Shown: positions 4,839 through 38,262 of the stretch, one piece after another
Layout: each line of letters starts with the position of its first letter
How positions within the stretch are numbered: the stretch's first letter is position 1
DNA from: Candidatus Peregrinibacteria bacterium
GTDB taxonomy: Bacteria; Patescibacteriota; Gracilibacteria; UBA1369; JACRIC01
Length of the DNA: 45,049 bases
Reading direction: 5' to 3'
NCBI GenBank assembly: GCA_016188705.1
Contig: JACPHH010000007.1
Span: 23,025 to 68,073 of the forward strand
Translations under genes and position numbers: made by a program
The notes under the pieces: model-generated
The model's database searches: none
What the model saw: only the letters and a program-made list of their open reading frames with translations
Told to the model about the DNA's origin: nothing

Positions 4839-7676
4839 CTAAGGAGTTAGCCTTTTAATTATTGTAAGGTTGCTTCCTTCGAGAGTTTGAGGAACAATAT
4901 CATATCCGTTTTCCACGATATTACCCTGGAATAAACGGGCTTGGATTTGCTCGCCAACGAGAGATTCGTCATAAGCAACATCAACAATAAGAAGGACGCG
5001 TTTTACAGATCCTTTTTTGAGAAACCAGGAACCCGAGAGAGCAAAGTTTTGGAGCTTATCATCTCCGTTCATGACAAGTTCGATTGGCCCCAAGAGAATA
5101 TTTTCCCATGTTTCAACGTCAACGAGACGAATATTGCTAAAATTTGTCGTTTTTTTGGCTTCATTAATGAGTCCGCCGGATTTGCCAAGAGAGGAAAGTG
5201 TAAAGTAAAGTTTTTTAACGGTAACGTCCGAATTCGCGGAAATTTGAAGATCGAGCAGAGGAACTTTAGTCGCGCCGTAACCCGCGTCATCGTCGGTATC
5301 GCCATATTCTTTTATCAGAGCTGAAGCATTATTGGTTGTAAGAGTGAGCGGATTGCCTGTAATACGGGTCGACGGATGAATGTCGGTAATATATGTCCCA
5401 TTTTCACGATTAACAATAGCTGTTTTACTAAGAGCTTGGAGAGTAACCGTAACATAACCAGGAGGATCAATAAAAGAAAAGATGGAGTTGTCGGCAATGT
5501 CCATCACAAAGGAGAAATGACGAATTTCCCCTGAATCGACTTTAAAACCATTTTTAAAAGTAAGACTCTGCGCAGTATCGCTTCCTGCGGGATTGAGCTC
5601 TTGTGGTCCCATAATCGTGGATATGCCTCCGTTTGCGCCTGGATAAAATTCAACAATTCGTATATTACTAAAATTCGGTGATAGAAATGACCCCTTGGAG
5701 TCTGAATTGAGTAAGCCTGCTTCATAACCGGAAACACTGATGTTTATTGTAAAAGTGAGTTCTTTTACTTCAATATTTTTTTCAGGGTTTATGGAAAAAT
5801 CAAAAAAACGTACATTTTGAACGCCTATTGGAACATTTGAAGCGCTTGGCCCTTCAAAAGAAATATTTACTTGAGAATCAGGATTTTGCGGACCACGTGG
5901 AAAGTCTCCTTCTCCCTGAATCACCACGGAATGACTGCCATTATTATCGTTATTATAGCCATCGGCATTGACGTTCACTCCAAAACCGTAAGTTTGACCC
6001 GTGGCATAGAGATCGTTTTCATCGGCAAGATAGACGTTAATGCTGTCTCCTGTTTTTGCCATGCGATGTATGTCCGCGAACACCGTAAAAAAGGGGTTGC
6101 TTCCTTGCTCGATTCGTAAGCCAAAAGGAATACTAAAGCGAACAAGGCCATAGGGCTTGGAAACAAGCGCGGCATGAGCAATCGGCGTCCCTGAAAAATC
6201 ATTGCCGGCATAGAGTCTGAAATTTGATAATCCGCGAAGAGGGTCAATGGTTCCTCCAATATGCAAAGCAATTTGATGAACAAAAACATTTTCAAAAGAC
6301 GGAGAAAGTTGAAATTCTGCAATTTTAGCATGGTTTGAGCCTGCGTAAACATTTGAAATCGTTCCATGCGCGGTAATATTTAAACTGCCTACGGTATCAG
6401 AGCCGATAGTATAGACCGGTCCATTGATGGCTCCGCGAGGCAAAATCAAATTGGTTTTGTCTTGGGTGGTAATCATGTCAGATCCGCCGAACATAAAATT
6501 CGATGCGTTTCCTGTTTTCGCAAGAGCGCTTATGGAGGCTTTTAACCGAAGAGTCGTAGTTTCTCCTGGAGCAAGAGGAATAAAAAGATTATCAAAACGC
6601 ACCATATGATTGGTTGGATTGCGAGTGGAACCAAAACTCGCGCGATGAGAGTCTCTAAAAAGGTAAAGTACTGAAAAATCGTCATCGCTTCCCTCACCGC
6701 TTCGATAAAATGATAAACTCGTAATAATGACATTTTTTTCTAAAGCGGTCAGATCAAATGTAAAAACCTCCGCGAATGCTCCTTTTGGCAGAGTAGTAAT
6801 TTGTGGAGTGGCGGGGTTTGGTCGTATAACAAGCTGTCTTTCCAAAGAATCAGAACGAAGAGGTCTTTTTAAAGAACCTGCCTTCAAGAAATGCTCTACG
6901 GATTGGCCTTCTGCGTTACGATCATCTTTTGGAACGTTTTTGGGTGTAATTATCGGTTTTGGAGGAAAAGTCTCATATTGAACTCCTGGAAAACTGTCGA
7001 TTTTTTCTTCACGAACTTTTATAAAACGATAAAGATTTTCCGCGATATTTGCGCGCTCCATGCCTTCAGCGGGATGAAAGGCGCTTCCGGTTTCTTCAAG
7101 AAGTCCTTTTTGTTTGGCAAAATGAACATATTTGGCATACCAAGCGGTTTCATCAATATCTTCATAGAGCGGTTCATCGATTGCTGTTTGAAGATCATTT
7201 TCGCCGACGCCTTGAGTTTCGATGAGCATTTTAAGAGATTCAACTTTATTCACTGCGCGGGAAGGATAAAAATAACCATCAGAATAGCCTTCAACCCAAC
7301 CGGCTTCTTTCGCGTAACATACATATTTTGCAAACCATTCATCTTTTACATCGGGAAAACAGTTAAGAAAAATACCAGAATCAGGAGAAATGCCCTGCCC
7401 TTCGAGAAGAATTTTCAGCTGTTCAGCTCGATTGATGGTTTTTTCAGGCTGAAAAGTGCCGTCTTGGTAGCCTTCGATTACCTCTCTTTCTTGTAAAAAT
7501 TCAATGGCTTGAAAGTTTTTATGCTCAGTATTTACGTCTGAAAATTCCTTTTGCGCGCGAACTTGAGAAAATACGACATTAGTTGACGCAAAAAGACCGA
7601 AAATAAGAACGCTTGCGAGAAAACGTGATGCCCAAAGCGTTCGCAACCGAATTTTATAATGAGCGGTAGTAAGCAT
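4839..7676 (-). CDS. Large secreted surface protein with three SLH domains
   Basis: The protein has 945 residues. A signal peptide is visible: basic segment HYKIRLRTLWASR, then hydrophobic FLASVLIFGLFAS. Three SLH domains follow at about 42-100, 105-165 and 170-220, with GYQDGTFQPEKTINRAE and GYSDGYFYPSRAVNKVE typical of the fold that binds cell-wall polymers. After a Pro-rich linker, residues about 285-945 look like four or more repeated beta-sandwich domains, each opening with a similar strand pair (NVIITSLSFYRSG, NIEVKELTFTINIS, DVTVKKLYFTLSS). It probably forms or decorates an S-layer-like surface. It is a single gene, convergent with rplT. The first 15 or so codons and the start codon lie in an arm of a dispersed repeat (see 7634-7690). 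Confidence 0.85.
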   Translation of the reverse strand: MLTTAHYKIRLRTLWASRFLASVLIFGLFASTNVVFSQVRAQKEFSDVNTEHKNFQAIEFLQEREVIEGYQDGTFQPEKTINRAEQLKILLEGQGISPDSGIFLNCFPDVKDEWFAKYVCYAKEAGWVEGYSDGYFYPSRAVNKVESLKMLIETQGVGENDLQTAIDEPLYEDIDETAWYAKYVHFAKQKGLLEETGSAFHPAEGMERANIAENLYRFIKVREEKIDSFPGVQYETFPPKPIITPKNVPKDDRNAEGQSVEHFLKAGSLKRPLRSDSLERQLVIRPNPATPQITTLPKGAFAEVFTFDLTALEKNVIITSLSFYRSGEGSDDDFSVLYLFRDSHRASFGSTRNPTNHMVRFDNLFIPLAPGETTTLRLKASISALAKTGNASNFMFGGSDMITTQDKTNLILPRGAINGPVYTIGSDTVGSLNITAHGTISNVYAGSNHAKIAEFQLSPSFENVFVHQIALHIGGTIDPLRGLSNFRLYAGNDFSGTPIAHAALVSKPYGLVRFSIPFGLRIEQGSNPFFTVFADIHRMAKTGDSINVYLADENDLYATGQTYGFGVNVNADGYNNDNNGSHSVVIQGEGDFPRGPQNPDSQVNISFEGPSASNVPIGVQNVRFFDFSINPEKNIEVKELTFTINISVSGYEAGLLNSDSKGSFLSPNFSNIRIVEFYPGANGGISTIMGPQELNPAGSDTAQSLTFKNGFKVDSGEIRHFSFVMDIADNSIFSFIDPPGYVTVTLQALSKTAIVNRENGTYITDIHPSTRITGNPLTLTTNNASALIKEYGDTDDDAGYGATKVPLLDLQISANSDVTVKKLYFTLSSLGKSGGLINEAKKTTNFSNIRLVDVETWENILLGPIELVMNGDDKLQNFALSGSWFLKKGSVKRVLLIVDVAYDESLVGEQIQARLFQGNIVENGYDIVPQTLEGSNLTIIKRLTP

Positions 7677-7690
7677 ATATATCAGGGTTT
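7634..7690. repeat. Half copy of the TTTA-type palindromic repeat, overlapping the SLH gene start
   Basis: This stretch matches the right arm of the complete element at 11374-11537. Both contain AAGCGTT/AGCGTTT, then CCGAATTTT, then GTAGTAAGCATAT and TATCAGGGTTT in the same order and spacing. The SLH start codon is the complement of the CAT in AGTAAGCAT, so codons 1 to about 15 derive from the repeat arm. Confidence 0.65.
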
Positions 7691-7809
7691 ATTAAAATAA
7701 AAAATATATTATTTTTTTCTACTTATTAGGTCGCGAAAGGTTACATATTTTAATATTTTTATAAAATGTATCCTTTTATCACGAGAGTTGAAGGGTATTT
7801 TCGCTGATT

Positions 7810-9151: not shown

Positions 9152-9270
9152 TGCCCACCGCTTTTTTGAAGCAATGGGGCGGGGACTCCCATTTGAGCGC
9201 ATAGCGAAGCGTAGCGAAAATGGAGTCCCCGCCCCATTGCTATCTGAATAAAAAGCAACGGCAGTCGGCA
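9152..9270. repeat. 120-bp palindromic element, copy 1
   Basis: Outer ends TGCCCACCGCTTTTTT (9152-9167) and ACGGCAGTCGGCA (9258-9270) are inverted copies of each other. The core is a strong hairpin: arms 9171-9194 and 9218-9240, about 23 bp with one bulge and rich in G/C, around a 23-nt loop containing AGCGAAGCGTAGCGA. Two further copies lie at 26272 and 38145. It sits between two divergent genes, so it is not a simple terminator here. The rest of 9046-9483 holds only AT-rich DNA and a repeat fragment near 9411. Confidence 0.88.
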
Positions 9271-11369: not shown

Positions 11370-11541
11370 TAAAGGAAACCCTGATAAATATGATTTCGTT
11401 ACGAAAATTGCAAAATTCGAGCGAAAACGCTGAATGACTGACGAAGCCGTATCAGAAAAAGATACGGTGAGGAGGTCTGAAGCGTTTGTAGCCGAATTTT
11501 GCAATTTGGAGTAGTAAGCATATTTATCAGGGTTTCCTAAA
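11370..11541. mobile_element. Complete MITE-like palindromic element with TAAA target duplication
   Basis: The element body is 11374-11537 (164 bp). Terminal inverted repeats are GGAAACCCTGATAAATATG and CATATTTATCAGGGTTTCC, which are perfect complements. They are flanked by the direct repeat TAAA (11370-11373 and 11538-11541). Further internal arms pair (AAATTGCAAAATTCG with CGAATTTTGCAATTT; AAACGCT with AGCGTTT), ending in the central stem CGTATC/GATACG. The whole element could fold into one long hairpin. There is no coding capacity. It occupies most of the argS to GNAT-like gene gap. Confidence 0.85.
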
Positions 11542-26271: not shown

Positions 26272-26390
26272 TGCTCATCGCTGTTGCTTTTTATTCAGAT
26301 AAAAGAGGGCGAGGACTCCCATTTGAGCGCATAGCGAAGCGTAGCGAAAATGGAGTCCCCGCCCTCTTTTTTAAAAAAAAGCGGTGGGCA
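26272..26390. repeat. 120-bp palindromic element, copy 2
   Basis: Outer ends TGCTCATCGCTGTTGC and GCGGTGGGCA form an inverted repeat. The core hairpin AGAGGGCGAGGACTCCCATT pairs with AATGGAGTCCCCGCCCTCT, and the loop matches copy 1. The flanking halves are in the opposite order to copy 1. The stem ends CCCTCTTTTTT, so after the HAD gene it could also act as an intrinsic terminator. Confidence 0.88.
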
Positions 26391-30294: not shown

Positions 30295-30391
30295 AATTCG
30301 TCACGAAATCTGCAAATTTTGAGCGAAAACATTGAAATTCGCGATGAAAACATCTCAGAAAATGGATTCGCGGTTTCTATGAAAGAATTCC
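30295..30391. repeat. Palindromic repeat copy overlapping the ureohydrolase 3' end
   Basis: Ends GGAATTC and GAATTCC are inverted. The interior ACGAAATCTGCAAATTTTGA, then GCGAAAAC and CATCTCAGAAAA, follows the order of the TTTA-type elements (CGAAATTTTACCATTTCGAG, CGTATCAGATAAA). It lies between convergent genes, and its right arm encodes the last ureohydrolase codons (RGILS). Confidence 0.5.
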
Positions 30392-32258: not shown

Positions 32259-32499
32259 ATTTATATATTTTTAAAGACATTTTCAATATAGAGAAAAAAA
32301 GTTCTCAAATCAATTGTACTTGAGATCATACGTTTTTCCCTTTGAAAAAATATGCTGGCAGGAGGGAGTTCGGAGCGAGTACCGCAGGCTGGTTTTCAAA
32401 AAGAGGCAGAGTCCCGGCGCCACTGAACGAAGAGTAACAGTTCTTAAGTACGAGTAATGCTCTTTGAAGAATAATGAAAGAGCATTACAATGAGAGTGC

Positions 32500-32740
32500 T
32501 TTAAGAAAATCCTGATAAATATGCTTACTACTCTATTTTTCATGACGAAATCATATTTAGGAACCTCTGAAAAACGTAACTTCGTAACGAAATTTTACCA
32601 TTTCGAGCGAAAAATGTGAAAAGCGACGAAGGCGTATCAGATAAAATACGTTGAGGAGCTTTGAACATTTTGCAGCCGACATGGTAAAATTGCAGTAGAT
32701 GGTACGTTTTTCAGAGGTTCCTTTATCAGGGCTTCCTAAA
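32500..32740. mobile_element. Shortened TTTA-type palindromic element carrying a nested insertion
   Basis: Outer element: left end GAAAATCCTGATAAATATG at 32505, then GCTTACTACTCTATTTTTCA, TGACGAAATCATATTTA, and after the nested element TCAGGGCTTCC ending at 32736. Without the insertion it is about 67 bp and reads as an internally deleted, inverted form of the 11374-11537 element. The rest of the 32259-32747 gap is AT-rich flank plus a GC-richer stretch (32350-32450) with no gene seen. Confidence 0.8.
32560..32721. mobile_element. Nested palindromic element with TTTA target duplication
   Basis: 162 bp, with termini GGAACCTCTGAAAAACGTA and TACGTTTTTCAGAGGTTCC as perfect inverted repeats. They are flanked by TTTA at 32556-32559 and 32722-32725. 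The core shares TTCGAGCGAAAA, GACGAAGGCGTATCAG and TGAGGAGCTTTGAA with the 11374-11537 element, but the terminal sequences differ. No coding capacity. Confidence 0.87.
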
Positions 32741-33689: not shown

Positions 33690-33775
33690 TGGCATCGTAA
33701 CTTCATGCTCGATCTTCACGATTTTCGCTCAAAAATTTACAATCTCGTTACGAAAGCGATTTTTGCGGGAATTCC
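33690..33775. repeat. Truncated palindromic repeat between holB and ricT
   Basis: On the minus strand it reads GGAATTCCCGCAAAAATCGC, TTTCGTAACGAGATTGTAAA, then TTTTTGAGCGAAAATCGTGA. This is parallel to the copy at 30295 and to the cores at 11374 and 32560. Confidence 0.5.
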
Positions 33776-38144: not shown

Positions 38145-38262
38145 TGCGCACCGTTTTTTTTGAAAAAGAGGGCGGGGACTACCATTTGAGCGCATAGCGA
38201 AGCGTAGCGAAAATGGAGTCCCCGCCCTCTTTTATCTGAATAAAAAGTAACAGCGGTGGGCA
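38145..38262. repeat. 120-bp palindromic element, copy 3
   Basis: Outer ends (TAACTG)CGCACCG and CGGTGGGCAGTTA are inverted and slightly longer than in the other copies. The core hairpin AGAGGGCGGGGACTACCATT pairs with AATGGAGTCCCCGCCCTCT around the same loop. It lies just past the end of the thioredoxin-reductase-like gene. Confidence 0.88.

Follow-up and report, generated by a model that had tools for sequence, protein, structure and literature searches.

A MITE nested within a second MITE in a Candidatus Peregrinibacteria genome, and the conserved, probably strand-specific hairpin core of its family

The window analysed here, a 45,049-nt stretch of Candidatus Peregrinibacteria DNA (assembly GCA_016188705.1, contig JACPHH010000007.1), contains a 162-bp palindromic element, termed element B, at 32560-32721. 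The 19-bp arms of B, GGAACCTCTGAAAAACGTA and TACGTTTTTCAGAGGTTCC, are perfectly complementary (19/19), and TTTA stands on both sides, at 32556-32559 and 32722-32725; the coordinates and arms given for B in the first-pass annotation are exact. The locus reads CATATTTA, followed by GGAACCTCTGAAAAACGTA...TACGTTTTTCAGAGGTTCC (32560-32721) and then TTTATCAGGG, the outer parts belonging to a second palindromic element, termed A. Only three other perfect 19-bp inverted repeats no more than 300 bp apart occur in the window (282/534, 9170/9223 and 11373/11520), and the last of these is a full-length A element. The features of the nested locus and of the window's full-length A element are as follows.

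32505-32559, minus strand: interrupted, internally deleted A element, left part
32556-32559, no strand assigned: left TTTA target-site duplication
32560-32721, plus strand: element B, a 162-bp MITE whose plus strand has the GAGCGAAA half of the core (from sequence, genome copies and flanks)
32560-32578, plus strand: left terminal inverted repeat GGAACCTCTGAAAAACGTA
32585-32592, plus strand: internal loop X1, left strand TAACGAAA
32605-32612, plus strand: internal loop X2, left strand GAGCGAAA
32617-32620, plus strand: putative tandem G.A site TGAA (partner TGA at 32662-32664), the pairing type being read from sequence
32623-32632, plus strand: internal loop Y, left strand GCGACGAAGG
32653-32659, plus strand: internal loop Y, right strand GAGGAGC
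32670-32677, plus strand: internal loop X2, right strand TTGCAGCC
32690-32698, plus strand: internal loop X1, right strand TTGCAGTAG
32703-32721, minus strand: right terminal inverted repeat, perfect complement of the left
32722-32725, no strand assigned: right TTTA target-site duplication
32726-32736, minus strand: interrupted A element, right end TCAGGGCTTCC
11374-11537, plus strand: full-length A element of the same window, 164 bp, with a TAAA duplication

Deletion of B together with one TTTA leaves CATATTTATCAGGG, which matches intact A copies of the same genome, and the restored flanks align with intact A elements over their ends. The A copy split by B is an internally deleted form of about 66 bp (32505-32559 plus 32726-32736) with its middle missing; the loss of its core preceded the insertion of B or was independent of it.

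A genome-wide search with B returned 78 matching pieces, and B end sequences at up to two mismatches were found 158 times in the whole genome, compared with 0 for a reversed control pattern. In the retrieved loci 25 B-end pairs were scored, L021 being left out as a false pairing of two neighbouring ends. Identical 4-bp flanks were present at 19 of the 24 full-length B copies, with a three-of-four match at the other five, while shuffled flank pairs gave a mean of 2.6 identical pairs and a maximum of 10. For the 19 full-length A copies the corresponding numbers were 13 and six (shuffled mean near 3, maximum 8). The duplicated sequences include TTTA/TAAA, TTAG/CTAA, ATAA, TTGA and TCAA. The genome also holds many truncated B copies, and minis of 63-75 bp, shortened by internal deletion, are frequent; some of these (63-66 bp) have identical flanks. 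A second clean insertion of B into A, with an ATAA duplication, was found at L004, and a third, rearranged case at L018/L053. In the nearest genome (same family, other genus) no elements lie beside the holB homologue, but the upstream region is not syntenic.

With duplications at nearly every copy, uninterrupted A copies in the genome and at least two B-in-A events, the earlier reading of the locus as the product of transposition into a second palindrome is borne out. The flanks are AT-rich, and the TTTA match might on that ground be put down to chance, the two palindromes merely adjoining; the flanks of the other B copies refute this, the restored A site has the sequence of other A copies, and we give the idea practically no weight. 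A and B are MITEs: B is short, non-coding and multi-copy, with 19-bp terminal repeats and target-site duplications. The ends of A (GGAAACCCTGATAAATATG) are unlike those of B (GGAACCTCTGAAAAACGTA).

That A and B share a core and differ in their ends had also been noticed from the window, and this holds far beyond its two elements. The core, of about 120 nt, recurs across the class in MITEs with unrelated ends. A BLAST search of relatives with B detected the element interior in 13 of 59 genomes, frequently between other ends, and a class-level covariance model built from 31 cores matched 22 of the 353 class genomes searched. Other ends found around the core are GGACATGCTGAAAAAC, GGTAACTCTGGGGAATATG, GAGATCTCTACAAAAG, GAGGGTATTTAAAAAG and CGGTCCCTCTTTGAGG. 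Two loop strands were combined into a search pattern, TTTGAGCGAAA(45-75)TTGCAGCCAAA, for which about one chance match was estimated in the collection; it identified at least 118 stretches. The matches listed include many Patescibacteria lineages, Bacteroidota (Chitinophagaceae, Pedobacter), Rickettsiaceae and other Alphaproteobacteria; most are again inverted-repeat elements of about 160 bp, but a few look like chance. With a wider model, the core was found in 47 of 380 sampled Patescibacteria genomes (12%), reaching 24 copies in genome G665 and 19 in G483. The viral contigs, phages and plasmids gave no match to the pattern or sequences tried, no Rfam 15 covariance model reached its gathering score over the elements, and a literature search found no paper describing the core.

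In the first-pass annotation both families were attributed to the same, unseen transposase. "Unseen" stands, as no DDE_Tnp_1 gene (the one Pfam family searched for) was found in the 35 contigs of the window's genome, and tblastn with two IS5 transposases against the retrieved loci and contig ends of this genome gave no credible match. Since a contig ends within one B copy and the assembly is 94.65% complete, the transposase may have been lost in assembly. DDE_Tnp_1 proteins are present in 30 of 241 relatives. A 1176-bp element in a genome of the same class, TTAA-GGAACCTCTGAAAAAC...GTTTCTCAGAGGTTCC-TTAA (L105), has ends identical to those of B over 16 bp and contains a degraded IS5-family transposase (ORF a 197-aa fragment; NF033581, E 1.4e-61), and two loci of order relatives (L101, L102) carry close variants of the B-type end with intact IS5-family genes (E about 1e-100). 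An IS5-family transposase between B-type ends is present in relatives and was not found in the window's genome; by these shared ends, an IS5-family enzyme is the best candidate for moving B.

A similar pairing was seen in a Pedobacter genome (G353), where an IS5-type element (L320:1445-2392; ends GAGCTTGTCTAAAGTTT, flanks AGA/AGA), its transposase reading frame interrupted between frames, has the same 17-bp end, GAGCTTGTCTAAAGTTT, as a core-bearing MITE (L192, flanks GAT/GAT). The core thus appears to travel with more than one IS5 subgroup, with 4-bp duplications in the window's lineage and 3-bp duplications in Bacteroidota. Among 10 MITE-rich Patescibacteria genomes other than that of the window, 5 gave PF01609 matches, none with matching ends; G665, G483, G570, G584 and G463, all rich in MITEs, yielded no DDE_Tnp_1 gene. 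The 4-bp target of the IS5 group is YTAR, to which TTAG, CTAA and TTAA conform; TAAG does not, nor do TTTA, TAAA and ATAA, which make up many of the duplications here. Because A and B differ in their ends, cores in other genomes have still other ends, and duplications are of 3 bp in Bacteroidota, a number of related IS5-type transposases is, for the family as a whole, likelier than a single one, though A and B themselves may share an enzyme.

Imperfect palindromes with bulges, and one GTAG in the core, are also features that might suggest REP-like palindromes moved by a Y1 (RAYT) transposase. REPs are palindromes of 20-40 bp (PMC3733652), compared with 162 bp for B, and the target duplications, the 19-bp terminal repeats and the ends held in common with IS5-family elements all speak against such an origin, which we consider very improbable; B was rejected as a REP on its length, terminal repeats and duplications.

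The core is predicted to fold into a long hairpin. Standard pairs fill 97% of pair cells in the class set, and double changes occur in 25 of its 35 pairs; across phyla the values are 91% and, for double compensatory changes, 20 of 26. The covariation score was reached by none of 500 shuffles, and sliding the partner by one column halved the pairing. The RNA fold has a z of -11.7, and the DNA fold is also stable (z -10.2). While the stems covary, the purine-rich internal loops are fixed across phyla, their strands sometimes exchanged. In the rows found by pattern, the columns of TTTGAGCGAAA and TTGCAGCCAAA are conserved by construction; these motifs are nearly invariant also in the class set, which was chosen without that pattern. 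Loop X consists of GCGAAA opposite TTTGNAG, with N variable, and probably forms tandem sheared G.A pairs with one bulged base, judging from the sequence. In loop Y, GACGAA stands opposite GAGGA, and the two strands are exchanged in many genomes; in Bacteroidota a second loop X is exchanged. In B and in one Bacteroidota element alike, GAGCGAAA lies 45-46 nt from the element end. Two loci (L147 in G027, L149 in G130) have the outer loops only, with an unrelated apical hairpin, and the fold looks modular.

Among isolated transition mismatches in the stems, G.T outnumbers A.C by 72 to 18 overall, by 71 to 16 in the set selected solely with a sequence pattern, and by 19 to 4 after clustering at 62% identity. 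Strand-blind upkeep of the arms would give equal numbers of the two, so the G.T excess supports folding of the GAGCGAAA strand and points to one defined strand that folds, as RNA or as single-stranded DNA. G.T is better tolerated than A.C in DNA as well, and the bias does not therefore separate the two. Relative to genes, 27 copies are sense and 47 antisense, a weak antisense bias; the lack of a sense bias counts against a transcript read through from host genes, which would predict one. No replication strand bias was detected along two long contigs, in G665 (p 0.73) or G483 (p 0.37).

These observations bear on whether the core has a function at all. If it had none, and complementarity were kept by template switching or conversion between the arms, the elements would be ordinary decaying MITEs; the stems are indeed long and near perfect, and the common 63-75 bp minis attest to hairpin-mediated rearrangement. 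Arm correction would, however, erase the mismatched loops, yet their sequence is the same across phyla, and would act on both strands alike, which does not fit an excess of G.T over A.C that persists after clustering. A functionless core is disfavoured, and we think it unlikely. A stronger competitor is use of the fold as single-stranded DNA in replication or transposition rather than as RNA. Folding on one strand, the stability of the DNA fold and the absence of a sense bias to genes would suit it, as would the tandem sheared G.A pairs, which form in DNA also; the 3-4 bp duplications at insertions, as in double-strand DDE events, and the absence of strand bias on the long contigs of G665 and G483 do not. 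Use as single-stranded DNA is a real possibility, though short of an even chance, and we lean somewhat towards a fold that acts as RNA, for which a protein-binding hairpin is our best guess.

We therefore propose the following account, which as a whole we consider probable. B would be a non-autonomous transposon (MITE) with ends of the IS5-family type, moved in trans by an IS5-family DDE transposase into a shortened A element, with duplication of TTTA. A and B would both belong to one old superfamily of MITEs of about 160 bp, each member of which has the same core of about 120 nt, forming a long hairpin with fixed purine-rich internal loops on one defined strand, and the terminal repeats would have come to fit different IS5-type transposases, through divergence or through exchange. 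The fold may act by binding a protein. A bolder and more tentative reading, which we favour less than not, is that the core is a mobile structured RNA of a new and widespread class, a hairpin module of about 120 nt with interchangeable sheared-G.A loops, carried across phyla on MITEs of several IS5-type lineages that swap ends, and kept in its fold because the RNA is needed for spread or for a host function.

Several described elements resemble A and B in part. The bacterial MITEs RUP, NEMIS, ERIC and Nezha (listed in PMC3733652) are, like B, short, non-coding and multi-copy, with inverted terminal repeats and a strong hairpin, and the target duplications of A and B are as in MITEs generally. 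Each of the four is reported from one genus or lineage, whereas the core of A and B has covarying stems and fixed internal loops and occurs with different ends in three phyla. QMITE1 of Coxiella (PMC5896051) is also a MITE with a long palindromic fold and 2-3 nt repeats, and is a source of small RNAs; by its description it is set apart, being 300-400 bp long and confined to a single species, its authors having found no orthologues. MITECca01 of Cardinium (PMC9769881) is a Bacteroidota MITE with ends like those of a resident insertion sequence (ISCca4), but it is about 240 bp long, lineage-specific and of the IS982 family, and no shared structured core is reported in the portion of that source available to us. 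IS5-family insertion sequences (NCBIfam NF033581, NF033580) have ends in common with the core MITEs, GGAACCTCTGAAAAAC or GAGCTTGTCTAAAGTTT, and 3-4 bp duplications; the IS5-family elements examined are without the core, whereas the core MITEs are without a transposase.

MITEs are usually regarded as passive remnants of an insertion sequence, short-lived and specific to one lineage. The elements described here run counter to this view, in that the interior is conserved across phyla, on one strand only, and the ends change. This gives a testable case in which the non-coding interior of a mobile element would serve a function, and it comes from Patescibacteria, a group whose mobile DNA is little known. 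If the fold is RNA, transposition would be the means by which the genomic copies of a structured RNA class spread.

Further repeats were also noted. Truncated pieces of the same core family lie at 7635-7696, 30297-30341 and 33710-33754 of the window. In the B copies L019:1501-1716, L020:1501-1716 and L022:1501-1717, a palindrome of 54 bp (TTTCGGGGTCCCC...) is inserted at the apex of the hairpin, which makes it another nested element. A GC-rich hairpin, repeat E (GGGCGGGGACTCC...ATTTGAGCGCATAGCGAAGCGTAGCGAAAT...GGAGTCCCCGCCC), occurs in the window at 9170-9241, 26299-26364 and 38164-38233; at L025 and L027-L030 a core whose ends are of a third type (AGGAACTCACACAAAAC), without target duplication, invariably lies inside repeat E. 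A further MITE-like unit spans 282-552 of the window and has perfect inverted ends of 25 bp, TAGGCAGTGTTTACATAAAATTTTT; related ends flank copies L003, L020 and L050. Just upstream of the nested locus, at 32340-32420, lies an unrelated dispersed repeat (GCTGGCAGGAGGGAGTTCGGAGCGAGT...GGCTGGTTTTCAAAAAGAGGC) that is also present at L083, L090, L094 and L291.
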